Of a stretch of DNA of 64,000 nucleotides, positions 967-36,249 are shown piece by piece. The position numbers were made by a program, and so were the translations under genes. The stretch is from Plumapathes pennacea (Eukaryota; Cnidaria; Anthozoa; Antipatharia; Myriopathidae): contig OZ038463.1 of NCBI GenBank assembly GCA_964036295.1, forward strand, positions 22,927,069 through 22,991,068. Reading direction: 5' to 3'. The notes under the pieces are model-generated. The model did not search any database. It saw only the letters and a list, made by a program, of their open reading frames with translations, and was not told the DNA's origin. Positions within the stretch are counted from its first letter, which is position 1, and each line of letters begins with the position of its first letter.

Positions 967-1008
967 CTGTTTCAACCAGGAAGCGATACGTCTCATTTCT
1001 TATTTGAT
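967..1008 (-). CDS. Cassette 11, exon E11 (last exon in window)
   Basis: Encodes QIRNETYRFLVET, donor GTAGGA. The open phase (1) shows that the gene continues to the left; no B exon is found in 1-966. Confidence 0.78.
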
Positions 1009-3241
1009 CTGAAAAAACAAACACTATATGTTGGTTACTAGAGTTGGTATGGCGTGATCACGAGAAAACGTATTGCAGTGCAGATATTAATGTATCCTGC
1101 CTTAGAATGTACTTTGAGATGACTTCCAGAGTACAATGCACGTAGAGGAAAATCAAAGAAATTTCGATCAGCCGTAAATTACCATTCAGAAGACGCAAAG
1201 AGGACAAACAAAAGTGTAAAAATAAGCACGAAAGAAATGTACTAAAAGAGAAGGAAAATGTACCAAAGAACGTTCCCACAGTATAGAGCATGGCAGCAAT
1301 TAATCAGGCAGATTAAAAGGGACGGTGGCGGAGTGGCGTTTACAGAAAAGAATTATGTTATTAGGGAAGATATAAAAGAGGGATAGGAGAATGACAAGAA
1401 AGAGGGAGAGATTGTTGATAGATAAAAGGAAAATGGAAAACTATCAGCGCAAAGTTAGAAGGCTAGTGCACATAGACTAAACGAGGGGAGGGTTGGACGG
1501 CAGAAGCAAAGGGACAAAGAATGAATAATAGGAACATGAAATTACAAAAAATTACAGATGTTTACGAAGAAAACGTGATAAATTGAACATAGAAATGGAC
1601 AGAGGGAAAAAAAGAATAGGGGAGCAGTAAGTAAACTGAGAAAGAAGCAAGAAAAGGAAGGATCGCAATTACTTGAATAAAGATAACTTTCAAACAATCC
1701 CATACCTGGAAGCGGCATGAGTGCAGAATAAACAATCTTAAAATTGTTGCATTTCGCGTTCACTGGAACGCAGCGCCCCTCGCCAAGGCAGAACTTGCTG
1801 TCTGGGGAGCAAGACATAGAGTTGTTCCTGGCAATCAATGCAGTCATGCGCTGAAACAAGCACATCCGCCCGTCCGGGACACACTGTCCAACATTGCCAC
1901 AGTCTACAAAGCCTTTAGGACAACCACCGCGCCAAGCTGTCTCATTTTCATCTTTTTCGGCTCTGTGGTAATCTTCTCCTCCACCTGCATCTTCTTTATG
2001 GTTTTCTGGATATCTGCCTACATCCGTGCAGTTTTTATCGATGGGAATACAAGCTTTGTCTTTATCGAGCGCCAGGAGGCAGAATTTGTGACCTTCTTTA
2101 CAGGATTTGTCTGCAAATGGGGTCCAACCGACACTTTGATTTTTCAAAAACTTTATAAATTCCTCCGGATTTTCTAACATTTTAGGACAAAAACTCCCGG
2201 CCTCTTCGATGAAAGCGATGCTCTGATGAACATGATGGCAGGAAGAGTACAACTTCGAGCAGTTGTCCTGGCAAGGTTGCTGGTCTGCAAAAAACGAGGT
2301 CTTAATTATTTACTGTGTTCAACATTACTAATGATTCATAAAGATTTAGAAAAGTCACTGCTCACCCTAAAATAAACTTTTTCGGGTGCAGGAGTTGTGA
2401 ACATTTTATCGAAATTTATCAAAAAAACAAAACAAAACAAAAAAAGGACACAACAGCTTGTTGATTGTTTGTGTGAAGAAAGAAGTAAAGAAGTAAAGAA
2501 ATAAGAAATAGCTGTTAATGTTCCTGTGATGATTATTTCCTCGCTCTTTACAAACTTGTCGATATACAAATCTTCATAGAAGCAGTTTTGTAAGGTCTCT
2601 TCATAACATTGTTAACACTGCGGACAAACTGTCTAGGACTATGGCTTACCTTTTGGACAGTTACACTCTCCACGTGGGATACATCTGTAATCAGAGAGAA
2701 AAATGAGTTAGAGACAAAGCTGTAAACTCCATAGTAGCTTATGTTTGATTCAACAATTAAGTCTTAAACTTGGCAAGGTACTCATGTGATGCTATACAAG
2801 ACCCAAAGTTTGGCCTTCTATCGTATTTCTACTGTTTAATAATAACGATAAAAATGTCTCTAATCTTCGTGGAAAAAAACGGTAAGCTGACGAAGCTCTT
2901 ACGCGTTCACTCCCGGACAGAAATGAAGGTTGTTTTGGCAACGTGGCGGATCTCTAACAGAACACGCGTCCTGTGACACGTTTGTCGGCCGACAAACACG
3001 GAGTGAATTCTCCAAGAGTTCACACGCTGTTTTCCCCAGTCCACAAACATCAGGTAAACCTGTTACGTGAAAAGAAGACTACTGTACAAGTGGACAGGTC
3101 ACTTCGATAAGCGCAAATATTAAAAATACTAGGATGTATACCACCATTAACGGCCTTCCATTCACTTTGACTGCAGGTCTGTCCTAGACGTACGGGGTAT
3201 CATAATGACTTCTATTTTCAGGATCGGAATAAAGTGAGATG

Positions 3242-3299
<58 letters not shown>

Positions 3300-6200
3300 G
3301 TGCAGAACCGTGACATGTGCGATAAATAAATTGCTATGCTTTTTGTGTTATACTCACGAATTTGAAGGGTCTCTTCCACGATTTGTTGAATAATACTGGT
3401 AAACTCAGATGTTTCTTTCATCAGGTCTTTACAGAAGTTAAACGTCCAGGCGCAAAATCCTTTCATAGGATTCATGCAGCCAGAATTTTCCTCCAAACAC
3501 TTCAAGTGATCATCATATCCCTCGCGTCGACAGTGATCTTCTCTCCTGTCACAAACGGCTTGAGATTTTAACTGCACGGTAAGGAGCCCTTTGCTCACAA
3601 AACAGAAACGAGCCCAGCCTGCACAAAATAAACGAGAAAAATCCATTGATAAAATATTTTGATCAAAAGACAAAAGCAACCCCAGCCTTCACAAAAGAGA
3701 AGAGCGGAGGACTCTAGTACACAGACAGAGGCGAACCCATCCTAAACAGATAAGATAGAAAACCGATTAATGGCAATCAGTCAAGATATTTTGACACGGA
3801 ATGTCTCTTACACAGTAGAGAACATTTAGATTCATATATATACTAAGGAGAAGTCGGATGGGGGTGGGGATACTAAAGTTATATGATAACAGGAAACATG
3901 TCAGTGAAACCATAGGACCAAGACAAAATTGAACATATTCCGTTTAGACTGCATATTTTAGATTTTAATTCAAACAATAGGCAATTGCGGGTTAGAGTGA
4001 ACTTTCTTTGATAAAAAAATGTTTAAGTATCCAGGCTCAACGATTCAAACAAAATTTAGACCTAATGGATTACTTTAAACAGCAACACCCAGGATTAATC
4101 CAATATAAATTCTTTTAGGTCTAATGTAACAGAAAAAAATGTGTTAGATTATGACTCCCACCTGTGTCAAGAAGGGCACGATACGTCTCATTTTTTACTT
4201 GACCTAAAAAAGAAATGTGTTTGTATTAGAAGTTGTGCGAACACGTGAACACAGTAAACTTGTTTAGTCGCATTTCATGTATTGACGACAGTCGAGTCTC
4301 CTATGTTCCAGTAGAACGCCATGATGAGAAAAAGCAAAGAGAGAAGAGAACAGCGCATTAAGTAGAGAACAGTTTAATTTCTATAATTATTTCATGCAAA
4401 AGGAGGTGCACAAGGAAGAGGATCAAGAGAGGAAGGGTACACAGGGAAGAGGATCAAGAGAGGAAGGGTACACAGGGAAGAGGATCAAGAGAGGAAGGGT
4501 ACACAGGAAAGAGGATCAAGAGAGGAAGGGTACACAGGGAAGAGGATCAAGAGAGGAAGGGTACACAGGGAAGAGGATCAAGGGAGGAAGGGTACACAGG
4601 GAAGAGGATCAAGAGAGGAAGGGTACACAGGGAAGAGGATCAAGAGAGGAAGGGTACACAGGAAAGAGGATCAAGAGAGGAAGGGTACACAGGAAAGAGG
4701 ATCAAGAGAGGAAGGGTACACAGGGAAGAGGATCAAGAGAGGAAGGGTACACAGGGAAGAGGATCAAGAGAGGAAGGGTACACAGGGAAGAGGATCAAGA
4801 GAGGAAGGGTACACAGGGAAGAGGATCAAGAGAGGAAGGGTACACAGGGAAGAGGATCAAGAGAGGAAGGGTACACAGGGAAGAGGATCAAGGGAGGAAG
4901 GGTACACAGGGAAGAGGATCAAGAGAGGAAGGGTACACAGGGAAGAGGTCAAGGGAGGAAGGGTAACAAGACTGATAGAAGAAAATGATGGTAGAAAGGT
5001 CAACGAAACGAAAAAACACCACTCGGAAAAAGAGGAGAGACACAAATGAGATTTCATCTCAAATCGCTCCTCTAAAAAGGCCAGATTTTTTGGTGTGGCC
5101 GGCGAGATGGGGCAGTGGTAAGATTTCGGGCCGGCGGTGGCATGTCTTATTTTTTGTTTCACCCCCCCCCCCCCCCCCCCCCCCCCCCCCTTTGCTTTGA
5201 GTTTAAAAATCCATGCGAATTCTATAGGTTGGTTTAAATTTTCGAGAGCTTGTGCCTTGAGAATCAAACTCCAAACGCGAAAGATTAGCTCATTAGTTCG
5301 CTCTGTTTAGGCGGTCGAGTATTTCCAGTCGCAAAGGCCGCCATTTTGTTTACCATTTGTTAGCCTGCCTAAACCTTATGCACCAGTCAACGGAATTAAC
5401 AAAACAATTACAATCCATCGAAAGAGCGAGTGAGTTAAATTTCCCCCAACTGCTATAACTCGTCCAATGATATTGCATTCACGAGTTAAAAACGGGTAGG
5501 GAATGGATCAAATATAGAAAAAAACAAGAAACGAAAAAAAACGAGCAAAAAATAAAATGCAAGAAAGGATTGCAGACAAACGCACATTTAATCATGGAAA
5601 GCGGTAATACAGGATTGAAAAAGAAAGAGGGAAAACAACGAAAACATGCAGATAAGTTTCACAAATAAACACATAACACGAAGAGGGAGAATTTAAACGA
5701 ACGTAATTTAGAAATGTAGCATACCTGCGTGTTGCATGAGTACTGCTTGAAGACCGATAGGAAAGTTTACGGACGGACAATCTTTCTCCTTAGAAATGCA
5801 TCTAAACGCAGAGTAGCAAAACCTTTCGGAGGAATTGCAACGGCCACTGAAGTCGTCGCATTTCTCTTTTAATGAAACGCAACGCCCTTGTGTAAGACAG
5901 TACTTAGTGTCTGCGGGGCAAGACTTGTTCAAGGGAGTCAACATCGAGTTGTTCATGTACATCCAGGCAGCCAAGTGCTGAAGTGAGCATTGCGACATTG
6001 GAACGCACCCTGCAAAGAAAGGACAGTACATGGACCCCGAAGGACAGTGATCATGCCAAGGTGTAACGCTCCATCCTCTCTGCTCTTTATTGTCTCCACC
6101 TGATTCTCCTTCCTTCTCTTCTGGATGGCTGCCATTAAGTGGCATCATAACACCAGGACCGGTACAGTTTGCATGAACTGGAATACATCCTCCGCTTTGG

Positions 6201-9200
6201 GCCAAGGACCAGAGACAGAACTTGTGGTTCTCAGGACAACTTTTGTTCGCCATTGGAGTCCAACTGACGCTTTGATTTTTCAGAAATACCAAAAATTGAT
6301 CTGGATTCTCCGATAATTTAGAGCAAAAATGTCCGGCTTCCTCCATGAAGCTCAAAGTATGATGAACATGATTGCAGGAAGAGTACAGCCTTGAACAGTT
6401 ACCCTGGCAAGGTTTTTCATCTGATAAAACATCATCAACAACAACAACAACAACAACCGCAATTGGTGAAGTCTCGCGTCTGTTTTAACATACATTTCAA
6501 CGAGTTCAGTAGTCTTAACATGGGTCATAACCGACCTGAAACTAGGGGTACTTTAAAAAATGTTATTGAAATTTTCTTGTACGGTAGTGGGGATAGTGTA
6601 CGACTTTGCTTATACGTCCGAGGGTTAACTGAAATCTTTACACACAAAACTCTCACACGGCAACATTTTGTTAGCTTTCGTTATTGACCTCAACGTTTGT
6701 CTAGACGTTTTGTTTATGGCAAGTTTTAGAGTGAGTTCGTTAATACCCAAAAACCTACAGCACATTGCTAACTACAATCGAGGGAAACGGCTTACCTTTT
6801 AGACACTCACATTCTCCAAGCGGCATACATCTGTAGAAGGACAGAGAAAGAAGGGGTTAAACAGAGAGACGGCGCATACTGTAGTACGCGTTTTATTCGA
6901 GTTGTTTCTGCTTCTACACTCGGCCTAGCGTTTGACCACTGTTAGTGTTACCTCAATGAAACCTTAAATTTACTAATCTTCGTCAAACGAAAATACTATG
7001 AGGATCTTACGCGTTCACTCGCGGGCAGAATCGAAGGTTGTTATGGCAATAAGGTATATCTCGAATGGAGCATGCGTCTTCCGACACCTCTTGTGGTAAA
7101 CAGAATCCGAATGAAGTCCCCAAGAGTTCGCAAACTGTTTTTCCTTGTCCACAGATATCAGACAAAGCTAGTGGAAAAAAATGAAGTAAACGTATAAGTA
7201 CTCAAGTGGGCTTGGTGAGTACAATGCACCATATTATGCGTTTGTCAATATATCAACAGCATGCAATGGGTGCAAATTCTATATATTTGTACTAATACTC
7301 ACGTATTTGAAGTTGCTCGCTCGCCATGTGTAGAAGCATTTTGGCAAACTCTGGTAACTCATTCATTACGTCTTTGCAGATGTTCACGCCCAGTGTACAA
7401 ACTTCTTTGATAGGATTCAAGCAACCAGCTTTTTCCTCCAAACACTTCACGTGACCATCATATCCCTCACGTTGACAATGAACTTCCCTCGAGTTGCAAA
7501 TGCGTTGACTTTGCAAGTATATAGGACGAAGAACTTGATCCAACAAACAGAAGCGAGTCCAGCCTGGACAAAACAAAAAAAGGAAAACCAGCCATATAAT
7601 AGCCTTTATTTTGATTATTTTGATTATTTTCACTACATCAATTTTAATGCAATAAAATACTTCAATATCTGTACATTAGCTTGAAACAAGGAAGAGTTCA
7701 ACCTGTATCGAAACTGACAATAGCTCCAATATACCAGTGCACGTGCAAAGGATATATATATATATATATATCTTGGTTACCCACAGTCAACTGGCTCCGA
7801 ATACCTGATTTGTTTGATGGTTTGGTACACTAACTGCAATAATCTGTGACGACTCGAGTACAATGTGCATCTAAAACGGCTTCAAATTTCCAGAATGCGA
7901 AAACGATAAAGACAATTCCAGCCCGCCTTCAAATTCTAATTACAGCGTGCAATGGAGTTTTGACTTGAAATGATTACAGGTGTATTTTTCTGTTGCTTTT
8001 TCATTGCCTATAAAATCTAAAAAATAAAGATACTCTAGGTTCACTCTGACAAAACGGGTAGATTTCTTACCTAATTCAGTAAGCATACGGGAAGTGTCAT
8101 TTTGCATTTCACCTGAAAAATAATTTTACTGATAAGATACTGAATTTGAATATTGAGACACTTCTCGCGATCAGTTCTAAAAGCACGAAACAGACATGAA
8201 GGACAAACGGAGAAAGTAGTGACCGAATAAAAACAGCAGGCAAAAAGTCCACGTAGAAACAGAAGAGCAGAAGAGTGAGAAGTGCACACATAAAAATATA
8301 ACAAGGAGTCACAAACGGAGGAAGGGAGAAGGTGAAGATTGAAAACTATATCAATAAAAGCAAAGATAAACATAGTGAAGAATACATCCAAAAGGAGGAA
8401 GGGTTAAATAAATTCAACGGAATGAGAAATGAATGAAGATAGGACGCTGGATGGATGGCAAATTCAAACTGTTTCAAAGGATTTCTTATAATTATACATA
8501 ACTGCTTGGCGAAACGAAAGGAGAATATGAAAAGATGGGAGAACACGCAATGAAAGAAGTGGACAACGAAGAAATATAGACACGAAGAAAAGAAACAATA
8601 ACGACGCAAGGAAGGAAGGAGATAAAGGAAGAGTAATAACAGGAAGAGTATGAAACAACAAAGGAAATAGTAACTTACAAAAAAAAAAAAAAACAAAAAA
8701 ACTACCATACCTGGAAGTTGCATGAGTGCATCACGTGGGAAATCAATGACGTGGCATTTTTCTTTCACTGAAACGCAGCGGCCTTGGGACAGACAGAACT
8801 TGGTGTCTGCAGGACAAAACTTGTTCAAGGGAGTCATGCTCGAGTTGCTCAGTCCAGCAAAGGAAGCCAGGTACTGGAGAGAGCAGATCTGACTGTTAGG
8901 GGCGCACTCTTCAGGATTCCCGCAGTAGGCAAAACCGCTAGGACAGTGATCGTTCCAACGAGACTTGTTCTCGCCTTTTTCTCCGCCTGCCTCTACTCCG
9001 TTTCCTTTTGGATCGCTGGCTTTTTTTGAACCCATGGCAAACTCACCAGTACAGTTCTCATCAATAGATATACATCCCGCGCTACTGAACGCCAACGGAC
9101 AGAATTTATCACCTTCGGGACAGAGTTTGGTTTGGTTTGCAAGCGGAGTCCAATTGTCACTCTGATTTTTCAAAAACATCACAAACTTATCCGGATCTTC

Positions 9201-10183: not shown

Positions 10184-10215
<32 letters not shown>

Positions 10216-10239
10216 GTTATTATTACTATTATCATTATC

Positions 10240-10292
<53 letters not shown>

Positions 10293-28000: not shown

Positions 28001-29496
28001 TCTTACGCGTTCACCCCTGGACAGAACCGAAGGTTGTTTTCGCAACGAGGCAGATCTCCAACAAAGCATGCGTTTTCCGAGACGCTTGACGTCTGACACT
28101 GTGTGAGTGCATTCTCCGCAAGTTCACAAACTGTTTTACCACGTGCGCACAAATCAGACATGGCTGTTGGGCAAATGAAAAATGCGAGAACTAAGTTCAG
28201 TAAAATCGCTGTGGTACACGACGGTTGTAAGTGAACAAGTCTCTTCTGTTAATATCATATACAGTATTTTGTGCAGTTATAATTCTGTTAACAGCCAACT
28301 TGGGCAATAATTCATATTTCGTGAATTTCAGTGCTGGCTTTCCCATATTGACCTGTAGTACACGGAACTTCACAATGGATCTACTACCGCAAGGACAGGC
28401 AGCATGCTTTCTTTTTGTGAAAAATCTTAGTTGTGACTATAATTGCAAGTACATATTTTCTCATTGATGAACACTATATCTTTTCGTTTCATTCTTATTC
28501 TTATTCTTATTGTTGTTTTACTACTTACGAATTTGAAGGTTCTGGCTCACGATTTGTAGAGGAATTTTGGCAAACTCAGGTAAGTCGTCTATTACACCAT
28601 TACAGAATTCCACACCCATTCTGCAAAGTCCCAAGTCTTTGATAGGATTCATGCAGCCAGAGTTTGCCATCAAGCACTTCAGGTGAACCTCATATCCCTC
28701 GCGTTGACAGTGAGCCTCCCTTGTGTCGCATTGCTGTTGACTCTTTGAGTACACAGTGTGAAGGACTTTGTTCAAAAAACAGAAGCGAGCCCAGCCTAAA
28801 CCAAACAGAAACCCATCAAGACACGTTTAGTATTTAAAATATCTAAAACTATTTGAAAACAACACGGATCCATAGACATATTCTCCACTCCCCGTGATTG
28901 ACATGGAGCATTTATCAGAAGACCGTTTAGAAGCCCCTAACGTTGATATAAACAATTTGTAGAAGGGTAAACGGTATATTTAAATGCTATAGGTTTCGTG
29001 GCGGGTGCAGAATAGAAAAGAAACGGCCACAGAAATAAAGCGAAGAGATGAAGAATCCAGTAAATGCATTTGTATGTAATCTATCAGCTCGGGAGCTCAA
29101 TTGCAACATTTTTACGAATTGAAATAAACATCAAGGCCCGTTTGTTCGAAGCGCGATGAAGCTAATCAGGAATAACCAAATTCTTTCTCTCGACCTCGCG
29201 GCCCCACCCCAATTTGAGCAAATTTATATGCAGATCGCAAAGCAATTTTGATAAAAACTGACAAAACCACAAGATGCCTTACCTGTTTCAACGAGAACAC
29301 GATACGTTCCATTCTTCGCTTCATCTGAAAAGCAAACGAGGTTCAGTTACCGTCGGTGCGCGATTACGACAGTTCCTATTGCAGTAGAAAAGTACACAAC
29401 GAGTAAATAGTGTATGAGGCAACTTGCATAGGGATGTTACATGCACAGTGACATCACCAACGTTTGAGTTCCAGAATTCTTGAAATAAAAAGGAGC

Positions 29497-29534
<38 letters not shown>

Positions 29535-32500
29535 GGCGGCGGTGTAACCTAATCAGGACAGAAACAAAGAGGGATAGAATGGAGAAACGACACACGTTAA
29601 AAAGCTTCACACGATGGGGTAAAATGCAAGGAAAAAGAAGAGAAAGAGAGATAGCAAAGGGTGAAAGAAAAAAAGGGGATAAAAGAAGGAAAATAGAAAA
29701 TATAGGAAGTAATAAAGAAACAGAAATACCAAAGAAGGATAGGGGGACATAAGGGCAGAGAAATAGAACAGCAAAAGATAGTAGCAAAGTAAAGCAAAAG
29801 AAAAAGAAAAGGAAGTGTAGGAAATAGAGAAGAGAAGAACGACATAGAAAGGAAAACAGAAAGAAGAGAGTGGAAAAAGAAGGGGCAAAGAACCGCTACT
29901 TTCAAACTTTGCTGTACCTGGGTTGTTCATGAGCGCAGCAAGCCTGACAGCGAGAGGAAATGTCGGGGGCGGACAATCATTTTCCTTAGGAATGCATCTA
30001 AATTCAGAGAAGCAAAACCTGTGGGAGGAGTTGCAACTGCCATTAAACTCTTTGTCAAAGTCGTAGCACGTCTTGTTCGCGGATATGCAGCGCCCTTCAG
30101 CCAGGCAATACCTGGTACCAGCGGGGCAAGATTCGTTCGAGGGAGTCACCATAGAGCTGTTCATTCCCAACCAGACAGCCAGGTGCTGAAGCGAGCACAT
30201 TGATATGTCTCGAGTACACTGCCCAACGATCCCACAGTAGAAAGAACCAGCAGGACAACGACTGAACCACGGTGTCACGCTCCCGTACTTTTGAACTTGA
30301 CCTTCTCCACCTGCTTCCCATTGGCTTCCATTTGGTGGTCGCATAGCAACCGCACCAGTGCAGTTTGCATCTATAGGAATACAGCCCTGTCTCTCGGGCA
30401 ACGCCAAGGCCAAGGGACAGAATTTATGACCCTCAGAACAGAACGAACTAAGTGGGGACCAATTTGCACTTTGATTTTTCAAAAATGTCACAAACCTAAC
30501 CGGATTTCCCAGCATCTCGGTGCAGAAACCTCCTGCAACCTCCATGACCGCAATATTCTCACGAATATCACGACAAGCGGAGTACTGTTCCGAGCAGCGA
30601 TCTTCACAAGGTTCCCAGTGTTCGATACAACGATCCTTGCAACCTCTTTTATCTGTAATGAAGATATTAAATCATACTGTGTTAAAAATTGATGAATTAT
30701 ACATGTTCAATATCGTTACGTCTATTTTCAAATGTTGGGAAACAGGAATTTTCTGCTATCTTTGCCTAATAGACACAAAAATATGGTCACGTGACATCAA
30801 CACTAACAACAAGGCAATGATAGAGCCTAAAACGTATAATGTTTCAATATAGGTCAATGCGCACATGCTTTAACACTGTAAAGATATTGTAAGCTGACGT
30901 TTCGAGCATTCGCTCTGCAGACCAAGGAACAAAAGGTAGCGCTCAAAACTTGAGGTAACAACAGACCACTTGCGAGATGCATGTTCCCTTTGTTTCTAAC
31001 TTAGTCCTAGTGCAAAACCTTTCTTACAAAAATGGTTTGATTTGCATGAAAATAAAAACTAATTTTCACAACGAAGGATTCGCACAAGACCTCGTTTTAA
31101 AACAGAAGCAAGGTATTTTAGAAATGGCCTGTTATTTTTTGACGAACGGTCATGTACATGTATGTAACTGTTGTTAATTAATATCGCTCGTATCTCCCTA
31201 AACAAAACCTCGACATTACGCTGCAGATACTCGCAGCATCCTGTGAACTGTTTAGAAACAACTTACTTTCTGGACAGGCACACTCATCACGCGGCAAACA
31301 TCTGCAGATGTAAAGAGAAAGAAGAGGGGTTTAGGGAGATAGACAGATAGACAAACAGACAGACAAAGAACCCTAGCACGGTGTAACTACGCACACCTTC
31401 TGCTCTTACCCTTGCTTTCTCTGTAGTACTCTTAAATATCTCATTGATGTTCTCTGAGTGGTCCTATAATCGGATTTTTATGGTACTTCTAGTAGTAACC
31501 ATTTCACTAATCTATGTCAAACAAATAAAAACAAACTTCGATGTTCTTACGCGTTCTTTCGTGGGCAGAACCAAAGATTGTTTTGACAGCGAGGAAGATC
31601 TATAACCGAGCATGCGCCCTCCGACTGACAATTTCCGAATGAATTCTCCAGAACTTTACAAAGTGCTCTTCCTTGTGTACACAAATCAGTCCAGCCTGTT
31701 CCAAAACAAGGAAAAAGAGAAAGGTTACTGCAGTGAAACCATATGAACGATATCACAACCCAAGTTTCGTTCCTAAGTATAAAGGCGTTTTCACAAGTGT
31801 AAAAGCATAAGAACAAGCACAAAAGAGCGACAGTGGCCACATAAACACGAGCATCAGGAATCGAACACATCCGTTCGTTATGCTTACGCTTATGTTGCAA
31901 CTGTCGCTCTCGCTAGTGAATATCATGGTTAACAGACAAAATGTTTAGCAATCTGTCAAATTAAGTTGCCGCAGACTTGTCGCTTTCCTTAAAAGCGAGA
32001 TGTGTGTGTGTGTGTTTGGATGTTTTGTCAAGATCGCAGTTTTGTTAGCGTGACATATGAGGATAGGATGTATATTTTATTGTTGTTTTTGTACTATTGT
32101 TGTTGCTGGATTACTCACCAATGTTGAAATTCATCTTCATGATTTGTAGCATCATTTTGACAAAGTCAGGTAAGTCTTTTTCTAGAGCGGTGCAGTAGTT
32201 AAAAACCATTGTGCAAACTCCAAGGTCTCTGATAGGATTCATGCAGCCAGAGTTTGCCTCCAAACACTTCATGTGACCCTCGTGTCCCTCGCGACGACAG
32301 TGAACCTCTTTCGTGTCGCATTGCCGTAGACGTTTTGACAATACAGCGTGGACAACTCTGTTCAAAAGACAGAAGCGAGTCCAGCCTACGCGAAACAGAA
32401 GAAACCAAGATTAACAAACAGCAATCACGTGCCAAAATCTAATACCATTTTCATATCAATCGGTTATATACTGAGGGAGATTTTAAAAATTTGGACTGCG

Positions 32501-32632
32501 CAATAGATTAATCTATGCTCAATACTTATGGCAACCACCAACGAGAATTATTGTGGTTTTTACAACAAACAATTTGATATATTGCATGCCCATGTTTCAT
32601 GTTTTGTTTCGTGCTAAGTATGACATGTATTT

Positions 32633-32684
<52 letters not shown>

Positions 32685-35600
32685 GGGGGGGGGGGGGTCT
32701 GTGCTGTGTTCTTTTGATGTAGTGCTTGCCTTTTTCCCAAACGTTTTCCGTAAATATGATGGGTTGGGCAACAGAACCGAGTCCATTAGGCAAAATAACT
32801 AGAAACTGATGACTCATGAAATAAATAGTACTGTACTGAATGAATGGGTGTTAGTTTCTTACCTGTTTGATAGAGGAAATGAAATGTCTCATTGTTTGTT
32901 TCACCTGAAAAAAAGAAAAATGAAACTATATTGTTAAAAAGATATTTTTATTTTAGTACAAAAATACACCACGACTAATATATGAGACAATTTCCATAGG
33001 AAAGTTGAAAGAGAAATGGAGGGAAATAAAGGAACGATGATTGAAAAAAAGAAATGGAACGAAGGAAGAAAGGAAGGGGAAAATGAAGGAAAGAAACGAA
33101 CAAAGTAAAGAAGCAAACTAAGAAATTGTCAAAAGAACGAAGGATGAAAGGAACTACAATGAAAACGAGAAAAGTAGACTGGAATAAAGACAAAGGGAGA
33201 AAAGAGAATAAAATAAGAAGCACCAGGAACAAAAGAGGAACTAAAGCAACGAATGAACAAAGGAGAAACTAAAAGAATCTAAAATAAGAAAGTCGCTTAA
33301 TAAGAATGACATACCTGGGTGCTGCATAATTGCAATCATCTTGAGAACAAGAGGAAAACTTGGAGATGGACAATCTTCATCCTCAGGAATGCACCCAAAT
33401 TTAGAGAAGCAAAACTTATAGGAAAAATCGCAAGTGTTTTGGAAGTCGACGTCGTGGCATTTATCTTTTACTGGAATGCAACGCCCTTCGGCCAGACAGA
33501 ACCTGGTGTCTCCAGAACAAGATTGGTTAAGGGGGGGTATCATAGAGTCGTTCAGTCCTCCCCAGGCCGCTAAGCTCTCAAATGCGCACTGCCACATATC
33601 AGAACGTCCAGAACAACGATCGAGCCAAGGTGTTGCATCGCCGTTCTCTTCTGGATAGCTCCCATTTAGAAGAAGCATGACGCCAGCTTGAGAGCAGTGT
33701 GCATCCATGGGAATACAGCCCGCCAATGGACAGAATGTTTGATTTTCAGGACAAATTTTATGTATGAGCGGTATCAAATTGACACTTTGATTTGCAATAA
33801 ACGCCAGAAATAGTTCCAGTTTATTTGCCACGTTTGGGCAAGAACCCGCGACCTCCTCGATAAACTCGAGGGTAGGACTAACATGATGACAGGAAGAGTA
33901 TAGCGCTGAACAGTAGCCATGATGACGTCCAGGTTCAGGGCAAGGTCCCTGAAACACAAAGAGAAGAATATGAAACCAACACCTCAGTCCACAGTAAGAC
34001 AATTAGAAGAAAGAGAAGATGATGAGAATTAGTTTAGAAAATGATATGATGAGAAGACAACGAGAAGCCAGAGAATATAATGAGAAAAAGAGTTCAGATG
34101 AGAATAGCCTTATTAGCATGAACCTTAATAGAGGTATCGCCAAAGCTATCTAAAACTTTACAGTAACAAGTTCAATAAAGAATTATAAAGTACGAAGATG
34201 ACTACGGTGACAATAACGGTTCCATAACAAAGTTACACAAAATTTTATTTTAAAATTATTAGGTTTTGAGCCAATCACCATGACTGTACGTTGCACTAAG
34301 GATGTGTGCGTGAATTTCAAACTAATCGACGAAGAACAATGAAAAACTATAGATTAAGAATCATGTAATCCTGATGGAAAGTATGACAAGCAAGACAACG
34401 CATTTTCACGGCATTCATTATATCCACGTCAACATTACGTTGATACTTTCACCGCCTCGCCAACGCAGACCCAAATTGGTTCTCACAGGGACTAGCATTC
34501 CATTGAAATGGAAAATAATGACAATTCAAGCTTCTCTTTGATTTGCATTCAAGTCCACTGATCCGTTAAGAACAACATCAAGGTTCTCACGACATTTTTA
34601 ATAATCATTGTACATATTAAGGGAATAACCTTGGAGTTTATTCTTAATGTTTCTAATGCATGGTTTTCTTAAGAAGAAAATCTGACTCTATAAATCGAAT
34701 TTAAAGCGGACAAAGGAATATTTCTAAAATCGCATGAATGTTTCTGTCCTCTGGCTTCTTAACAAAAGATCACTGCGAACTCGCTGCATGAAACCAAGCC
34801 ACTTGTTTTACGGTTCTTCTCGCTGCTCGCGACTCGGTTCAAAAAGTAGAACTTGCAAGCAGCACTGACACATTTCAAAAACACTCTAAATTTAGACATT
34901 ACCAAACGTTTACGCAATTGAAAATCATTCCTAATATGTTGCGAACAAGTAAACCTATGCCTGGGCTGAATAAAATAGGGAAAGTTATTTACAAAATTCT
35001 TTATATCTAAACTATAAAATATGGCAAAATAAGTTAGAAATGTTGTCGCTATCCAGGTATAATCTATTTTGGAATTCGGGACGGTATGCCAAGCAGGGCC
35101 CGGTTTTTCAAAGCACAATTAGGCTAATCCTGGAGTAGGTCTAAGCTTTCTTGTCATTTTTTAGCCTGAATACGTGAAAGTTTCGTCCACAACGACTTTC
35201 TTGATAACGTTTTAAGCTGGAACAAGCTTTCTAATACATCTTCGAACAAAACCTAGCAGTTTATTGGCAGAGAGGTCGAGAGAAAGAATTTCGGTAATCT
35301 TGGATTAGCTTAATCGACTTTCGAAAAACCGGGCCCAGATGTATAAAGAAACAGTTTAAAATTTTGAACTGGGTGTACGAAGATCGACGTCTTCTAAAGG
35401 AGAGTCATTCAGAAGAAAAATACAAAAATAATCGATCCACACAAAACTTTCGTTCATTATTTCCATTAATAAACCGGAAAACTTTGAAAGTTTGAAACTT
35501 CGTGAAAAACAATTCTGACCACATAGAATTTACAATCAATCAATCAATCAATCAACCCAGTCATGTCCTTTCACATAACGCCTGGGAGTCAGGGACTCGT

Positions 35601-36249
35601 TACAACGTGCAACCGAAATAACTAGAATTTTACATGTAAATGGTATCACAAAAACAATCATCCATCGTTGACATCAGTTGAATCTTTCCTTGATAATTCG
35701 TCACATTCGGTTTGTATCGAACTCCTTCGTGTATTAGCAACGACAAATAAACTGGACTGAAAGATCAATTTGCATACAGATGATGGAAATATGAATACTA
35801 TATTTTTCAATGCACGAGTCAACTTCGATTTTGGGAAGTCGAGAATATAAGAGAGCAGAGCGCTAGTGGTGGGGCTAGTGGTGAGAATGCTGATAATATA
35901 GTCGTAAAACTTCAATATGTCGAGACACAGTTGGTTAAGAAACGGACCGTGTCGATTCCATTAGAAATAAACCTTACTGACCTCATCAGCTCCACAGTCG
36001 ATTCCAAGCGTTTCATCCAAACGGATAAGAATAATGCAAAGCAGCGCTGAAAAAAAAGGAGAGGATATCAATGCGCTATCATTTTATTTTGACCGATAAA
36101 GAACACAACAGGTTGCGCTCGCATTATCACCAAACTTGACACACTGCAGCTTTCAAATGAGCTGTTTGAAGAACTCACGACAAATTTTGTCGCGGATAGT
36201 GACTCGAAAGGCATTTACCTATCCCACATTGGTACGAATACGTGTGCAT
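967..36249 (-). CDS. Giant cassette-repeat cysteine-rich extracellular protein (54 exons, 3' end outside window)
   Basis: Seen: 54 minus-strand exons can be joined with GT/AG borders and consistent phases, giving 11,980 coding nt (3,993 codons plus one base) without a stop. The start is a short exon encoding a signal-peptide-like N-terminus. Then follow 11 cassettes in order A-E-B-C-D, the eleventh cut off after E by the window edge. A full typical cassette is 1,095 nt (365 residues) with 32 cysteines. The cysteine spacing in A (C-x5-[FY]-C-x4-7-C-x5-C) resembles a shortened LDL-receptor class A module. N-glycosylation sites recur at fixed places in A and E. There is no membrane segment inside the array. 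Inference: secreted or tethered extracellular protein such as matrix, mucus or surface coat. I do not recognise the family as a whole. Alternative: several genes, but no second signal-peptide exon or stop is seen. Confidence 0.8.
1009..1705 (-). other. A11-E11 intron, pyrimidine-rich in the transcript
   Basis: The plus strand is strongly A/G-rich over about 1.33-1.68 kb, so the minus-strand transcript is C/U-rich just upstream of microexon E11. Nothing else is seen. The same asymmetry occurs in the other A-E introns. Confidence 0.6.
1706..2284 (-). CDS. Cassette 11, exon A11
   Basis: 579 nt, the shortest A exon. QQPCQDNCSKLYSSCHHVHQ, sequon NQSVGW, modules CKEGHKFC...ACIPIDKNC, CPKGFVDCGNVGQCVPDGRM, CSPDSKFCLGEGRCVPVNAK; ends ALMPLPG. 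A charged linker (KEDAGGGEDYHRAEKDENET) separates modules 1 and 2. Confidence 0.85.
2650..2684 (-). CDS. Cassette 10, exon D10 (35-nt microexon)
   Basis: Encodes CIPRGECNCPK. Acceptor TTACAG, donor GTAAGC. Confidence 0.77.
2903..3059 (-). CDS. Cassette 10, exon C10 (6-Cys domain)
   Basis: 157 nt. LPDVCGLGKTACELLENSLR, CRPTNVSQDACSVRDPPRC, FCPGVNA. Acceptor AACAG/GT, donor GTAAGA. Confidence 0.84.
3245..3298. repeat. (GT)n microsatellite in the B10-C10 intron
   Basis: An uninterrupted run of about 27 GT units directly left of exon B10. Rest of the intron is plain. Confidence 0.95.
3358..3618 (-). CDS. Cassette 10, exon B10 (7-Cys domain)
   Basis: 261 nt. GWARFCFVSKGLLTVQLKSQ, CDRREDHCRREGYDDHLKC, NSGCMNPMKGFC, then divergent tail CKDLMKETSEFTSIIQQ. 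Confidence 0.85.
4162..4203 (-). CDS. Cassette 10, exon E10 (42-nt sequon microexon)
   Basis: Encodes QVKNETYRALLDT. Acceptor TTTTAG, donor GTGGGA, an atypical but usable donor. Confidence 0.75.
4410..4965. repeat. 31-bp minisatellite (about 17-18 copies) in the A10-E10 intron
   Basis: Unit begins gatcaagagaggaagggtac and continues acagggaagag, a 31-bp period with few variants (gga/gag at the middle). Because 31 is not a multiple of three, a 190-codon open frame on the plus strand arises artificially. The transcript strand is C/U-rich. Confidence 0.95.
5162..5190. repeat. Poly-C tract
   Basis: A run of 29 C on the plus strand in the same intron. A GC-rich stretch with box-A-like ggggcagtggtaag lies just left of it; I cannot assign it. 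Confidence 0.9.
5725..6420 (-). CDS. Cassette 10, exon A10 (alpha type with fourth module; left edge of 6-kb repeats)
   Basis: 696 nt, phase 1-1. The first two thirds match A8 and A6 almost exactly (CPENHKFC...GCIPVHANC; CPSGSMYCPFFAGCVPMSQC). From about 5.93 kb leftward it diverges: module 3 reads CPADTKYCLTQGRCVSLKEK, and a fourth module CNSSERFCYSAFRCISKEKD follows, as in A1 and A2. It ends AVLMQHAG. It therefore looks like a hybrid exon at a duplication breakpoint. Confidence 0.86.
6796..6830 (-). CDS. Cassette 9, exon D9 (35-nt microexon)
   Basis: Encodes CMPLGECECLK. Confidence 0.78.
7011..7167 (-). CDS. Cassette 9, exon C9 (6-Cys domain, beta type)
   Basis: 157 nt, single CTAG acceptor, ends FCPRVNA. 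Contains CLPREVSEDAC. Confidence 0.82.
7303..7563 (-). CDS. Cassette 9, exon B9 (7-Cys domain, beta type)
   Basis: 261 nt. GWTRFCLLDQVLRPIYLQSQ to AKMLLHMASEQLQI; one residue (MLL for MIL) from B7 in the helical tail. Confidence 0.87.
8071..8112 (-). CDS. Cassette 9, exon E9 (42-nt sequon microexon)
   Basis: Encodes EMQNDTSRMLTEL. Confidence 0.8.
   Translation of the reverse strand: MKCKMTLPVCLLN
8711..9310 (-). CDS. Cassette 9, exon A9 (beta type)
   Basis: 600 nt. As A7 but HHVQQS for HHVHQS in the head, GSKKAS for GSRNAS (one sequon lost) and EECAPN for GECAPN in module 2. Confidence 0.87.
9514..9548 (-). CDS. Cassette 8, exon D8 (35-nt microexon)
   Basis: Encodes CMPRDKCDCSE. Confidence 0.78.
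9643..10192 (+). mobile_element. 5'-truncated non-LTR retrotransposon relic (unit I)
   Basis: The plus strand preserves the typical C-terminal reverse-transcriptase tail words ILDYADVIWGDQ, then in another frame YKCINKHVDCDFNFRNF and WNYLPIST, separated by stops. The relic is followed directly by the (TTA)n tract, which looks like the element's 3' tail. Family is best described as CR1/L2/Jockey-like. Dead copy in the C8-D8 intron. Confidence 0.7.
10193..10352. repeat. (ATT)n tract, tail of LINE relic I
   Basis: About 160 bp of TTA/ATT repeats with GTT, ATC and ACT variants. Confidence 0.9.
10513..10669 (-). CDS. Cassette 8, exon C8 (6-Cys domain, alpha type)
   Basis: 157 nt. LSDICGQGRAVCELLENSFR to FCPKVNA; tandem CAGCAG acceptor. 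Confidence 0.84.
11035..11295 (-). CDS. Cassette 8, exon B8 (7-Cys domain, alpha type)
   Basis: 261 nt. GWARFCFMNKALYIVQMKTQ, CNAREDHCRRDGYDGHLKC, NLCKSIMGDLPEPVRVLLQM. Confidence 0.87.
11440..11481 (-). CDS. Cassette 8, exon E8 (42-nt sequon microexon)
   Basis: Encodes EVKNDTYRVLVQT. Confidence 0.8.
11742..12359 (-). CDS. Cassette 8, exon A8 (alpha type)
   Basis: 618 nt. Differs from A6 by a few residues, including CLFFAGC for CPFFAGC in module 2 and CPAGTRYC for CPADTRYC in module 3. Three modules only; ends QLAAIMQNPG. Confidence 0.87.
12735..12769 (-). CDS. Cassette 7, exon D7 (35-nt microexon)
   Basis: Encodes CMPLGECECLK. Confidence 0.78.
12991..13147 (-). CDS. Cassette 7, exon C7 (6-Cys domain, beta type)
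   Basis: 157 nt, single CTAG acceptor, donor GTAAGA, ends FCPRVNA; matches C5 and C9. Confidence 0.82.
13283..13543 (-). CDS. Cassette 7, exon B7 (7-Cys domain, beta type)
   Basis: 261 nt. GWTRFCLLDQVLRPIYLQSQ, CNSREVHCQREGYDGHVKC, AGCLNPIKEVC, NICKDVMNELPEFAKMILHM. Confidence 0.87.
14127..14168 (-). CDS. Cassette 7, exon E7 (42-nt sequon microexon)
   Basis: Encodes ELQNDTSRILGEL. Confidence 0.8.
   Translation of the reverse strand: MNCKMTLPVSLVN
14739..15338 (-). CDS. Cassette 7, exon A7 (beta type)
   Basis: 600 nt. Essentially the A5 protein: CPEGDKFC...GCISIDENC, CPSGFAYCGNPGECAPNSQI, CPADTKFCLSQGRCVSVKEK. CAG/GT acceptor. Confidence 0.87.
15542..15576 (-). CDS. Cassette 6, exon D6 (35-nt microexon)
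   Basis: Encodes CMPRDKCDCSE, identical to D8. The C6-D6 intron carries the LINE relic and an ATT tract. Confidence 0.78.
15671..16212 (+). mobile_element. 5'-truncated non-LTR retrotransposon relic (unit II)
   Basis: Same insertion as in unit I, copied with the 6-kb block; carries the same word LDYADVIWGDQ and few base differences. Followed by an expanded ATT tract. Confidence 0.7.
16213..16550. repeat. (ATT)n tract, tail of LINE relic II
   Basis: About 340 bp, including an inverted AAT stretch near 16.35-16.38 kb, indicating local rearrangement. Confidence 0.9.
16712..16868 (-). CDS. Cassette 6, exon C6 (6-Cys domain, alpha type)
   Basis: 157 nt. Reads as C8: LSDICGQGRAVCELLENSFR to FCPKVNA. 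Tandem CAGCAG acceptor. Confidence 0.84.
17234..17494 (-). CDS. Cassette 6, exon B6 (7-Cys domain, alpha type)
   Basis: 261 nt. GWARFCFMNKALYIVQMKTQ, CDAREDHCRRDGYDGHLKC, NLCKNIMGNLPEPVRVLLQM. Three substitutions from B8. Confidence 0.87.
17639..17680 (-). CDS. Cassette 6, exon E6 (42-nt sequon microexon)
   Basis: Encodes EVKNDTYRVLVQT, identical to E8. Confidence 0.8.
17941..18558 (-). CDS. Cassette 6, exon A6 (alpha type)
   Basis: 618 nt. EKPCQGNCSRLYSSCNHVHH, sequon NQSVSW, modules CPENHKFC...GCIPVHANC, CPSGSMYCPFFAGCVPMSQC, CPADTRYCLSEGRCVSVNEK; ends QLAAIMQNPG. A (CAA)n tract lies in the intron just upstream, as with A8 and A10. Confidence 0.87.
18937..18971 (-). CDS. Cassette 5, exon D5 (35-nt microexon)
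   Basis: Encodes CMPLGECECLK, identical to D7 and D9. Confidence 0.78.
19152..19308 (-). CDS. Cassette 5, exon C5 (6-Cys domain, beta type)
   Basis: 157 nt. LSDICGQGKTVCELLGTSF-type reading with single CTAG acceptor and GTAAGA donor; ends FCPRVNA. Confidence 0.82.
19444..19704 (-). CDS. Cassette 5, exon B5 (7-Cys domain, beta type)
   Basis: 261 nt. GWTRFCLLDQVLRPIYLQSQ, CNSREVHCQREGYDGHVKC, AGCLNPIKEVC. Differs from B7 by a Lys in CLEKKAGC, showing low divergence between 6-kb units. Confidence 0.87.
20329..20370 (-). CDS. Cassette 5, exon E5 (42-nt sequon microexon)
   Basis: Encodes ELQNDTSRMLTEL, beta type. Confidence 0.8.
   Translation of the reverse strand: MNCKMTLPVCLLN
20937..21536 (-). 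CDS. Cassette 5, exon A5 (beta type)
   Basis: 600 nt, phase 1-1. KPCQDDCSRLYSSCHHVHQS, sequon NQSDNW, modules CPEGDKFC...GCISIDENC, CPSGFAYCGNPGECAPNSQI, CPADTKFCLSQGRCVSVKEK; ends LMQLPG. 16 cysteines and sequons NQS, NQT, NCT, NAS, NKS and NSS. Acceptor CCAG/AT differs from the CAG/GT of A7 and A9. Confidence 0.87.
21738..21772 (-). CDS. Cassette 4, exon D4 (35-nt microexon)
   Basis: Encodes CMPRDECDCPE. Same as D6 and D8 except for E/K and P/S changes. Confidence 0.78.
21846..22027. repeat. (ATT)n tract, unit III, without LINE body
   Basis: About 180 bp directly after cagacagacagac; the LINE sequence of units I and II is absent here. Confidence 0.9.
22191..22347 (-). CDS. Cassette 4, exon C4 (6-Cys domain, alpha type)
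   Basis: 157 nt. LSDICGQGRAVCELLENSFR, CQPRNVSQDACTVRDQPLC, FCPKVNA, with NVS sequon. Acceptor is a tandem CAGCAG, so the first Ala may be added or dropped. Confidence 0.84.
22711..22971 (-). CDS. Cassette 4, exon B4 (7-Cys domain, alpha type)
   Basis: 261 nt. GWARFCFMSKALYTVQMKTR, CDAREDHCRRDGYDSHLKC, NSGCMNPIRGIC, NLCRSIMGDLPEPVRVLLQM. Close to B6 and B8. Confidence 0.86.
23112..23153 (-). CDS. Cassette 4, exon E4 (42-nt sequon microexon)
   Basis: Encodes EMKNDTYHVLIQT. Acceptor TTTTAG, donor GTAAGA. Confidence 0.8.
23464..24081 (-). CDS. Cassette 4, exon A4 (alpha type, right edge of the 6-kb repeats)
   Basis: 618 nt, phase 1-1. Head KPCHGNCSRLYSSCNHVRHS, sequon NQSISW, modules CPENHKFC...GCIPVHANC, CPSGSTYCPFFAGCVPMSQC, CPTDTRYCLSEGRCASVNEN; ends QLAAIIQNPG. 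The 3' part matches A6 and A8 almost base for base, while the head and the upstream intron differ, so the duplication boundary falls in or just upstream of this exon. Confidence 0.86.
24332..24366 (-). CDS. Cassette 3, exon D3 (35-nt microexon)
   Basis: Encodes CLPLSECDCLK; beta-type ending LK instead of PE/SE. Acceptor CTACAG, donor GTAAGG. Confidence 0.78.
24601..24757 (-). CDS. Cassette 3, exon C3 (6-Cys domain, beta type)
   Basis: 157 nt, phase 1-2. LSDICGQGKTVCELLGNVFG, CLPREVSEDACSIRDLPLC, FCPRVNA. Single CCAG acceptor rather than the double CAGCAG of alpha C exons. Confidence 0.84.
24921..25181 (-). CDS. Cassette 3, exon B3 (7-Cys domain, beta type)
   Basis: 261 nt, phase 1-1. GWTRFCFLNQVLRPIYLQSQ, CDAREFHCQREGYDSHVKC, AGCLNPIKEVC, then NICKDVMNSLPEFAKMLLHM. 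Close to B5, B7 and B9. Confidence 0.86.
25785..25826 (-). CDS. Cassette 3, exon E3 (42-nt sequon microexon)
   Basis: Encodes EVQNETSRILAET, beta-type wording (TSRIL). Donor is ACTG/GTAAGT, acceptor TTTCAG. Confidence 0.8.
26459..27052 (-). CDS. Cassette 3, exon A3 (beta type)
   Basis: 594 nt, phase 1-1. Head RPCHNDCSRMYSACHHVHGT, sequon NQSANW, modules CSEGQKFC...GCIQSNENC, CPSGFAYCGNPGECAPNSQI, CPAGTSFCLSQFRCLSVKEK. Ends VIDFPRDALMQLPG. The second half is nearly identical to A5, A7 and A9, while the first half is clearly divergent, suggesting a patch of gene conversion or a recombination edge. Confidence 0.86.
27308..27342 (-). CDS. Cassette 2, exon D2 (35-nt microexon)
   Basis: Encodes CIPRGECDCPE. 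Acceptor is a weak CTAAAG; donor GTAAAC. Same reading as D10 at seven of the first eight positions. Confidence 0.75.
27343..28006 (-). other. C2-D2 intron, nothing identified
   Basis: 663 bp of unique-looking AT-rich sequence; no exon, repeat tract or inverted repeat recognised. Confidence 0.5.
28007..28163 (-). CDS. Cassette 2, exon C2 (6-Cys domain)
   Basis: 157 nt, phase 1-2. MSDLCARGKTVCELAENALT, then CQTSSVSENACFVGDLPRC and FCPGVNA. Acceptor CAACAG, donor GTAAGA. Confidence 0.83.
28529..28795 (-). CDS. Cassette 2, exon B2 (7-Cys domain)
   Basis: 267 nt, phase 1-1. GWARFCFLNKVLHTVYSKSQ, then CDTREAHCQREGYEVHLKC and NSGCMNPIKDLGLC. Shares the DLG insertion with B1. Acceptor TTTAG, donor GTAAGTAG. 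Confidence 0.85.
29130..29215. repeat. Partial copy of the 35.1-kb MITE
   Basis: Contains cccgtttgttcgaagcgcga, agctaatcaggaataacc and ttctttctctcgacctc, resembling the arms and inner part of the inverted-repeat element at 35096-35336. Lies in the B2-E2 intron. Confidence 0.45.
29283..29324 (-). CDS. Cassette 2, exon E2 (42-nt sequon microexon)
   Basis: Encodes EAKNGTYRVLVET; the sequon is NGT, the only Gly variant. Acceptor TTTCAG, donor GTAAGG. Confidence 0.8.
29503..29533. repeat. Poly-G tract
   Basis: 31 G on the plus strand in the E2-A2 intron, next to the A/G-rich block 29.55-29.89 kb. Confidence 0.9.
29918..30652 (-). CDS. Cassette 2, exon A2 (longest A exon, four modules)
   Basis: 735 nt, phase 1-1. 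It has an extended head, DKRGCKDRCIEHWEPCEDRC, with an extra cysteine pair before the usual CSEQYSAC. Then come the sequon NQSANW, modules CSEGHKFC...GCIPIDANC, CPAGSFYCGIVGQC, CPAGTRYCLAEGRCISANKT and a fourth module CNSSHRFCFSEFRCIPKEND. It ends LAALMNNPG. The fourth module is shared with A1 and A10 only. Confidence 0.85.
31014..31130 (+). repeat. Dispersed repeat copy (A2-D1 intron)
   Basis: Words caaaacctttcttacaaaaat, tttgcatgaaaataaaaact, aattttcac and acctcgttttaaaacagaag recur in the same order at about 61.3-61.45 and 62.03-62.26 kb. Confidence 0.5.
31267..31301 (-). CDS. Cassette 1, exon D1 (35-nt microexon)
   Basis: Encodes CLPRDECACPE, phase 2-1, pattern C-x-P-x3-C-x-C. Acceptor CTGCAG, donor GTAAGT. 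Frame is kept only if C1 is also included. Confidence 0.78.
31551..31695 (-). CDS. Cassette 1, exon C1 (6-Cys domain, short form)
   Basis: 145 nt, phase 1-2; the other nine C exons are 157 nt, so four residues are missing between Cys3 and Cys4 (CQSEGAC). It starts GWTDLCTQGRALCKVLENSF and ends FCPRKNA. Start resembles the GW start of B exons. Confidence 0.82.
32119..32385 (-). CDS. Cassette 1, exon B1 (7-Cys domain)
   Basis: 267 nt, phase 1-1. Starts GWTRFCLLNRVVHAVLSK and contains the B signature CDTKEVHCRREGHEGHMKC then NSGCMNPIRDLGVC. Shares with B2 a two-residue insertion (DLG before C) that the later B exons lack. The last 30 residues (LPDFVKMMLQI) look like an amphipathic helix. Confidence 0.85.
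32637..32697. repeat. (GA)n followed by poly-G
   Basis: About 19 AG units then 23 G in the B1-E1 intron. Confidence 0.92.
32863..32904 (-). CDS. Cassette 1, exon E1 (42-nt sequon microexon)
   Basis: Encodes ETNNETFHFLYQT, phase 1-1, with TTTCAG acceptor and GTAAGA donor. NET is the conserved glycosylation site. The upstream intron is pyrimidine-rich in the transcript. Confidence 0.8.
33315..33948 (-). CDS. Cassette 1, exon A1 (Cys head plus LDLa-like modules)
   Basis: 634 nt, phase 0 to 1. It begins GPCPEPGRHHGYCSALYSSC, so it joins straight to the signal-peptide exon. The head is followed by modules CPENQTFCPLAGCIPMDAHC, a degenerate second module (CSGRSDMWQC, two cysteines lost), CSGDTRFCLAEGRCIPVKDK and a fourth module CDFSYKFCFSKFGCIPEDED. 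The sequon NQS before the first module is conserved with all other A exons. Most divergent of the A exons together with A2, so likely an older array end. Confidence 0.85.
33949..35981 (-). other. Intron between signal-peptide exon and A1
   Basis: 2,033 bp. Contains the MITE at 35.1 kb and a short (AATC)n run at 35.53 kb. No coding exon recognised. Confidence 0.55.
35096..35336. mobile_element. MITE with terminal inverted repeats GGGCCCGG
   Basis: Left end gggcccggtttttcaaagc...ttaggctaatcc; right end ggattagcttaatcgactttcgaaaaaccgggccc. About 241 bp with arms near 40 bp. No coding capacity. Flanks give no clear target duplication. Confidence 0.7.
35982..36046 (-). CDS. Exon 2: end of signal peptide
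   Basis: A 65-nt exon with TTTTCAG acceptor and GTCAGT donor. It encodes LLCIILIRLDETLGIDCGAD and one more Glu, giving the hydrophobic core and a likely cleavage region around ETLG/IDCG. It ends at phase 0, matching exon A1, the only A exon that begins at phase 0. The next intron (33949-35981) is the longest complete intron in the gene. Confidence 0.75.
36219..36249 (-). CDS. Exon 1: start codon and first half of signal peptide
   Basis: This 31-nt coding exon reads MHTYSYQCGI plus one base and ends at a GTAAAT donor. It was chosen because it is the only nearby ATG whose phase (1) fits exon 2, and the join creates a hydrophobic run (CGIALLCIILI) typical of a signal peptide. An out-of-frame ATG lies 29 nt upstream and opens a short uORF that ends at the TAG spanning this donor. 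The true transcription start is unknown; an upstream non-coding exon is possible. Confidence 0.6.

Follow-up and report, generated by a model that had tools for sequence, protein, structure and literature searches.

The window analyzed here, a stretch of 64,000 nucleotides of Plumapathes pennacea contig OZ038463.1 (coordinates on the contig are prefixed C2; all others are relative to the window), carries a minus-strand gene whose 54 exons run from 36396 to 967, splice in phase, and give 3,987 stop-free codons. The model was rebuilt from recurring open frames and splice sites, has AG/GT at every exon boundary, and bears out the 54 in-phase exons of the initial annotation; the 3,993 codons counted there are consistent with ours, as the first exon assumed there, at ATG 36249, is 18 nt longer than the one preferred below. 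The 53 introns of this part measure 135 to 2,033 bp. Five exons recur 11 times in the strict order A-E-B-C-D, as initially described, with ten cassettes complete in the window and the eleventh finished outside it. The entry phase is 1 for exons A (with the sole exception of A1, phase 0), E, B, and C and 2 for D, after which the A of the following cassette returns to phase 1; hence, a cassette could be gained or lost without a frameshift.

All cassettes are on the minus strand. Cassette 1 (31267..33948; 34 Cys) consists of A1 33948-33315, E1 32904-32863, B1 32385-32119, C1 31695-31551, and D1 31301-31267; cassette 2 (27308..30652; 38 Cys) of A2 30652-29918, E2 29324-29283, B2 28795-28529, C2 28163-28007, and D2 27342-27308; cassette 3 (24332..27052; 32 Cys) of A3 27052-26459, E3 25826-25785, B3 25181-24921, C3 24757-24601, and D3 24366-24332; cassette 4 (21738..24081; 32 Cys) of A4 24081-23464, E4 23153-23112, B4 22971-22711, C4 22347-22191, and D4 21772-21738; cassette 5 (18937..21536; 32 Cys) of A5 21536-20937, E5 20370-20329, B5 19704-19444, C5 19308-19152, and D5 18971-18937. 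Cassette 6 (15542..18558; 32 Cys) consists of A6 18558-17941, E6 17680-17639, B6 17494-17234, C6 16868-16712, and D6 15576-15542; cassette 7 (12735..15338; 32 Cys) of A7 15338-14739, E7 14168-14127, B7 13543-13283, C7 13147-12991, and D7 12769-12735; cassette 8 (9514..12359; 32 Cys) of A8 12359-11742, E8 11481-11440, B8 11295-11035, C8 10669-10513, and D8 9548-9514; cassette 9 (6796..9310; 32 Cys) of A9 9310-8711, E9 8112-8071, B9 7563-7303, C9 7167-7011, and D9 6830-6796; cassette 10 (2650..6420; 36 Cys) of A10 6420-5725, E10 4203-4162, B10 3618-3358, C10 3059-2903, and D10 2684-2650. The part of cassette 11 inside the window (967..2284) comprises A11 2284-1706 and E11 1008-967; B11, C11, and D11 follow at window-relative -3781 to -5378, and with them 21 tail exons leftward to -32777 (C2:22894291). 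A 31-bp minisatellite occupies 4281-5072 in intron A10-E10 (18 overlapping register positions), and a four-base microsatellite of 2.5 kb lies within intron E11-B11 (L009 about 6330-8880).

Judged by conservation, the first exon appears better placed at 36396 (MKLL...) than at 36249. Exon S1 (36384..36396, minus strand), with the start codon and the first signal-peptide residues (MKLL), is 13 nt long (ATGAAGCTCTTGG/gtaagc, giving MKLLALLCIILIRL) and has a phase-compatible donor; exon S2 (35982..36046, minus strand, AG/GT) supplies the remaining signal peptide (ALLCIILIRLDETLG...), and S1 joined to S2 reads MKLLALLCIILIRLDETLG. A paralogue, g2 (see below), retains S1 together with its 5' flank (ATGAAACTTTGGG/gtaagc) and has an S2 reading ALLCVFLVRFDETAG, 61% identical over 18 aa. 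The preference for 36396 follows from this stretch conserved upstream of g2; the ATG at 36249, the start chosen initially, lies outside the conserved stretches and becomes a possible alternative. The signal peptide claimed for the gene is thus supported, split over two exons. Internal start exons with signal peptides of their own, named in the initial annotation as evidence against one gene, number 0 in 53 introns in a scan of single-exon signals, which split ones would escape.

The 32 Cys given for a typical cassette hold for seven of the ten complete ones (3–9), while cassettes 1, 2, and 10 have 34, 38, and 36. By exon, the number is even in all 11 copies of A (16 in eight of them), 7 in B, 6 in C, and 3 in D, the last three summing to 16; these even sums suggest two closed disulfide units per cassette. 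Together with the signal peptide, the 350 Cys and 88 N-x-S/T sites in the 3,987 residues of the window part support the earlier description of the product as extracellular, disulfide-rich, and (here probably) glycosylated.

Comparison of cassettes with one another yields dN/dS <1 in every scored pair: 51/51 for exon A (median 0.32; 55 pairs in total), 41/41 for exon B (median 0.49; 45 pairs), and 39/39 for exon C (median 0.26; 45 pairs), scoring being limited to dS>0.1, with 4, 4, and 6 pairs, respectively, too similar. The diverged cassettes are under purifying selection, and the array is therefore not a product of chance. At the same time, it is partly young: the protein of exon A5 is identical to that of A7, and an alignment of the 6-kb two-cassette units that begin with these two exons, intron sequence counted, shows 97.4% identity across 6,165 bp. 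That these units are not fully identical speaks against a copying error of the assembly.

Reading 33 kb further left, the frame passes 24 more exons to a stop. The complete gene spans 69 kb on the minus strand (C2:22963464 to 22894291, i.e., from 36396 leftward past the window edge) and has 78 exons; its frame of 23,673 nt contains a sole stop at the end, with AG/GT throughout and phases agreeing at every junction. The predicted protein of 7,890 aa has 432 Cys and 122 N-x-S/T, the polypeptide amounting to about 850 kDa. Splice sites beyond the window were scored with a matrix derived from the gene's own 54 exons; the sites used are top-ranked or sole candidates, except for the acceptors of T9 and T10 (second-ranked, chosen for phase), while D11 was located by pattern and the T19 acceptor by eye. 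E11 is followed by B11, C11, D11, a 2.4-kb Pro-rich exon, and T1–T19, plus a small exon T15b, which was sought to close the sole phase gap (T15–T16), has a poor donor, and alone finds no match in g2 or g3. By eye, the Pro-rich exon begins in the manner of exon A (GEKLCQDSCVSIHEHC); it continues with 21.2 copies of a 99-bp repeat, i.e., 21 Pro-rich repeats of 33 aa, ends in a domain common to paralogues g2 and g3, and is composed of 23% P, 17% S, and 4% T. The last exon encodes Ala/Ser/Pro repeats of 25 aa each (35% A, 27% S, 11% P, 6% T); it has 1,117 residues in g1, the gene described here, versus 277 in g3, which is without these repeats. For comparison, transmembrane mucins are marked by Pro/Thr/Ser tandem repeats and by a SEA domain on the outer side of the membrane.

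The Pfam search on joined exons T8–T15 identifies a REJ domain (PF02010) with 188.6 bits (E=2.1e-55; cut-off 25; profile positions 6-432 of 452); a Fn3_Dep-1_3rd match (32.4 bits) is shorter and nested within it. Single exons show TIG and pieces of REJ in the correct order (profile 43-92, 89-178, 176-233, and 316-372, the last two below the cut-off alone). As the joined exons score far above the single ones, the joins in this region are right, which provides an independent check of the splicing. TIG on joined exons reaches 33.2 bits (cut-off 20.9); T1–T5 joined give nothing in Pfam at E<=0.1, and the best match of the CxGxC exon in PDB is a single insignificant one, ADAMTS5 (E=0.12).

Downstream of REJ, a stretch reaching to the last exon and ending CHAWNAAFSNWSTSGV...CSKDEVGYFAVF resembles, by eye, a GAIN domain with a decayed GPS; neither Pfam nor PDB gives a match for the GAIN-like region. 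The GPS pattern comprises four Cys and the HLT cleavage triad; the GPS-like site seen here by eye, CHAWN...NWSTSGV...C...GYFAVF, has lost two of the four Cys and HLT, and has no Pfam GPS match. The segment before the membrane is SEA-like by eye (no Pfam SEA match; four PDB matches, E 0.55 to 1.6), and the last part shows weak sub-threshold Pfam matches, the best being Uroplakin_II (16.8 bits, cut-off 20.4). Hydropathy analysis (19-residue windows above 1.8, a threshold that leaves the signal peptide unflagged) reveals one hydrophobic segment, near residue 7823, followed by a charged tail of about 40 residues and the stop; the protein is probably membrane-anchored. With one such segment before the stop, the 11-helix channel part of polycystins is not present. 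A PLAT-bearing polycystin was likewise rejected, as none of the 87 PLAT matches in the genome is at C2:22.8-23.2 Mb (in an exon-by-exon search, which a finely split PLAT could escape) and the stop comes about 40 residues past the helix. An RRRR motif, a possible furin site, is found between REJ and the membrane in T16 of g1 (C2:22903192-22903431) and in g3 (about C2:23074342).

Genome search at E<=0.001 places exon A at 22 sites, exon B at 22, and tail exon T5 at four, all at C2:22.866-23.124 Mb; matches to cassette and tail were found only within these 260 kb of the genome. By position they form four genes: g1 (11 cassettes, minus strand), g2 (1, minus), g3 (5, plus), and g4 (5, plus), of which g2 and g3 were read in part and g4 is known from search matches alone. 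Aligned with g1, the g2 and g3 tails keep its order, the transmembrane part included. Comparison of B11, C11, and T1–T19 of g1 with g3 or g2 gives dN/dS <1 in 42 of 42 scored comparisons (0.11 to 0.97), with T15b unmatched, D11 and the Pro-rich exon omitted, and T19 represented by its last 240 codons. Synonymous divergence between g1 and g3 is 0.11-0.18 in T5–T8, 0.12-0.20 in T17–T18, and 0.21-1.4 in other exons; between g1 and g2, it is 0.15 in T17–T18. Such patchy divergence at C2:22912039-22915207 (T5–T8) and C2:22899118-22900136 (T17–T18) suggests candidate tracts of gene conversion. The two plus-strand five-cassette paralogues (C2:23033730-23062151 and C2:23101068-23124415) are about 62 kb apart and have near-equal scores; they may stem from a large duplication of recent date or from a haplotype that the assembly retained.

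The four-Cys modules of the cassette, 45 in the window part when chosen by position, resemble by eye the first half of the LDL receptor class A repeat (PF00057), with the spacing C-x6-C-x4/5-C-x6-C and often FC..GRCI, but are without its last two Cys and its acidic calcium box. A profile of these 45 modules matches LDLa with 19% probability, with none of 100 column shuffles scoring as high; a looser profile of 82 modules gives 4.8%, and one of 20 shuffles reaches a higher probability. Pfam on two whole cassettes shows no match at E<=1, thus no PF00057, lectin, or EGF, and none of the 150 scored LDLa candidates (of 191 in the genome) falls within the window. The LDLa-like appearance noted initially thus stands as a resemblance by eye with weak profile support, while membership in the family is rejected, given four Cys rather than six and no Pfam match. 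Against 5.8 billion proteins, the whole cassette retrieves 1,059 candidates, none at E<=0.001, and exon A retrieves 34, none at E<=0.01; the search demands common 5-mers and similar length, and the collection may hold few animal proteins, hence this negative result does not show the cassette to be unique. A PDB search with a cassette gives no match. AlphaFold models of exons A and B are poor (mean pLDDT 46.6 and 54.4; 10 window rows each), so that ligand binding draws no support from a fold. Tail exon T5 has matches of 49 and 52% in two unnamed ENA proteins, while the cassette and exon A match none; from these searches, the tail gives the impression of an older, shared module, the cassette that of a faster evolving or more restricted one.

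Single-transmembrane members of the PKD1/REJ family are known: SpREJ1, 8, and 9 of sea urchin, SpREJ1 acting on sperm as a receptor for egg jelly; PLAT follows the first helix in five of ten SpREJ and in all five human members (PMC1934368). Similar to g1, SpREJ1/8/9 have a signal peptide, REJ (partial in 8 and 9), and one transmembrane helix, and SpREJ9 has Ser-rich stretches; unlike g1, with its 7,890 residues, cassettes, and TIG, SpREJ1 is 1,450 residues long and contains EGF and C-type lectin domains (PMC1934368). In cnidarians, planulae of Aurelia are rich in a transcript with a REJ domain (PMC4334923), and the Nematostella "egg jelly receptor" Nv302 is listed with DnaJ_zf, GPS, TIG, GH17, and REJ, as cnidarian-specific, and under tentacles (PMC4877951). 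Nv302 is the closest description found, combining TIG and REJ in one protein as g1 does, and the g1 tail is of a known cnidarian kind; the CxGxC-rich segment beside TIG in g1 may, at a guess, be what was called DnaJ_zf there. Compared by description, the differences are that the Nv302 row names no cassette array, and that GPS is called in Nv302 and undetected in g1. The skeletal protein aug_v2a.02830 of the coral Acropora digitifera shares with g1 the REJ domain in a membrane protein, but is multi-pass, with WSC, PKD repeats, GPS, and PLAT (PMC4890752); A. millepora B8UU59, a skeletal PKD1-related protein, has 11 predicted helices (PMC4043741), versus one helix and no PLAT match at the locus for g1. 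The label "undescribed" may hold for the cassette, no description of which was found in the literature on REJ, egg jelly, and skeletal proteins outside subscription journals; a combination of TIG, REJ, and GPS is on record from Nematostella (PMC4877951).

The reading that we consider likely is one gene encoding a type I membrane protein of 7,890 residues, with REJ of the polycystin-1/receptor-for-egg-jelly family, without the channel part, and with the cassettes as an N-terminal arm; the architecture itself we regard as very probable. As to function, it is about an even bet that an epithelial or tentacle cell uses the protein for surface adhesion or to capture a ligand. Adhesion, capture, or a display tuned by length accords better than enzymatic or channel signaling with an ectodomain that is long, repeat-spaced, and multivalent and sits on a single helix with 40 cytoplasmic residues.

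The initial annotation proposed a fibre or coat protein, which is not supported as stated, as the same frame continues into TIG, REJ, and one transmembrane helix. In a modified form, with the array cleaved off or alternatively ended and deposited as disulfide-rich material in mucus, skeleton, or capsule, the proposal is improbable: the frame runs unbroken to a helix conserved in g2 and g3, and the di-cysteine typical of the tandem repeats of galaxin-type proteins (PMC4890752) is absent (0 CC in the 4,136 residues of the cassette part), by which a galaxin-type skeletal matrix protein is also rejected. In its favor are the Cys content of the window part, the 21 Pro-rich repeats directly after the array, the RRRR site that follows REJ toward the membrane in both g1 and g3, and the presence in coral skeletons of a REJ protein, though a multi-pass one with PLAT (PMC4890752), and of a PKD1-related one for which 11 helices are predicted (PMC4043741).

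A gamete-recognition receptor would use the arm to bind the egg coat and trigger a sperm or egg response, cassette number providing species or individual specificity. The single-transmembrane SpREJ proteins, SpREJ1 binding egg jelly (PMC1934368), and the ranking of suREJ homologues with those genes in which two Acropora species differ most (PMC11577847) agree with this role; pairwise dN/dS <1 between cassettes and in the tail (averages that can mask single diversifying sites), the listing of the Nematostella transcript with matching domains under tentacles in a comparison of nematosome, mesentery, and tentacle (PMC4877951), and no lectin domain in the two cassettes examined make it unlikely. 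That two neighboring genes, one for a secreted protein made of cassettes and another for a REJ receptor, were fused by the splicing model is highly improbable, for while the bridge, a DNA-based join, spans the Pro-rich exon (2.4 kb) and an intron, about 4.7 kb long, with the 2.5-kb microsatellite, the Pro-rich exon alone, with its start like exon A (by eye) and its end shared with g3 and g2, bridges both parts, and g2 and g3 have the same order. The single gene of the initial annotation is accordingly upheld by cassettes all in phase, four tail matches for four genes, and introns free of single-exon signal peptides.

As a membrane-anchored REJ-family protein, g1 would be displayed by an epithelial cell or gamete, with the Pro-rich and Ala/Ser/Pro repeats as spacers keeping the cassette arm far out. 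Each cassette may form a closed disulfide unit (an even number of at least 16 Cys in A; 7+6+3=16 in B+C+D), repeated for avidity, and the cassettes could bind or cross-link a repetitive ligand, e.g., a glycan, mucus, an egg coat, or a neighboring cell. The TIG-REJ-GAIN-like part would carry or transmit load, the RRRR site common to g1 and g3 could permit shedding of the arm, and arm length may change through unequal exchange of the symmetrical phase-1 cassettes. A bolder joint reading, which we hold to be rather doubtful, is that A and B-C-D constitute a new pair of disulfide-rich extracellular domains and that the cluster of four genes serves recognition with arms of variable length: unequal exchange of cassettes, at present in 1 to 11 copies, and gene conversion in patches between paralogues would keep generating new receptor arms for contact with self or non-self, gametes, or symbionts.

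Gene predictors have difficulty with giant repetitive surface genes, and here reading beyond the window edge replaced an orphan "fibre" by the complete model of a receptor-like member of the REJ family. The biology of REJ/PKD1 gains a single-pass branch, probably cnidarian, with the ectodomain built of whole five-exon cassettes (1, 5, 5, and 11). The locus lends itself to testing: individuals and related species can be typed for the number of cassettes, and a single cassette is small enough for structure and binding studies.

The remainder of the window and its surroundings contain other features. Nine tandem tRNA-Val genes with anticodons cac, aac, and tac are located at 48316-58245 on the plus strand (ARAGORN; the same nine are tRNA in Rfam); an interspersed element, considered for the repeats at 48–58 kb, was rejected in their favor. 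Open frames at 59106-60115 (minus strand) resemble, by eye, pieces of reverse transcriptase, and an open frame at 62844-63131 (minus strand), ending ...KVQCAHQ, looks by eye like the C-terminal end of a protein of DnaJ subfamily A. Between g1 and g2, open frames at C2:22889320-22890854 resemble an M20-type peptidase (by eye).
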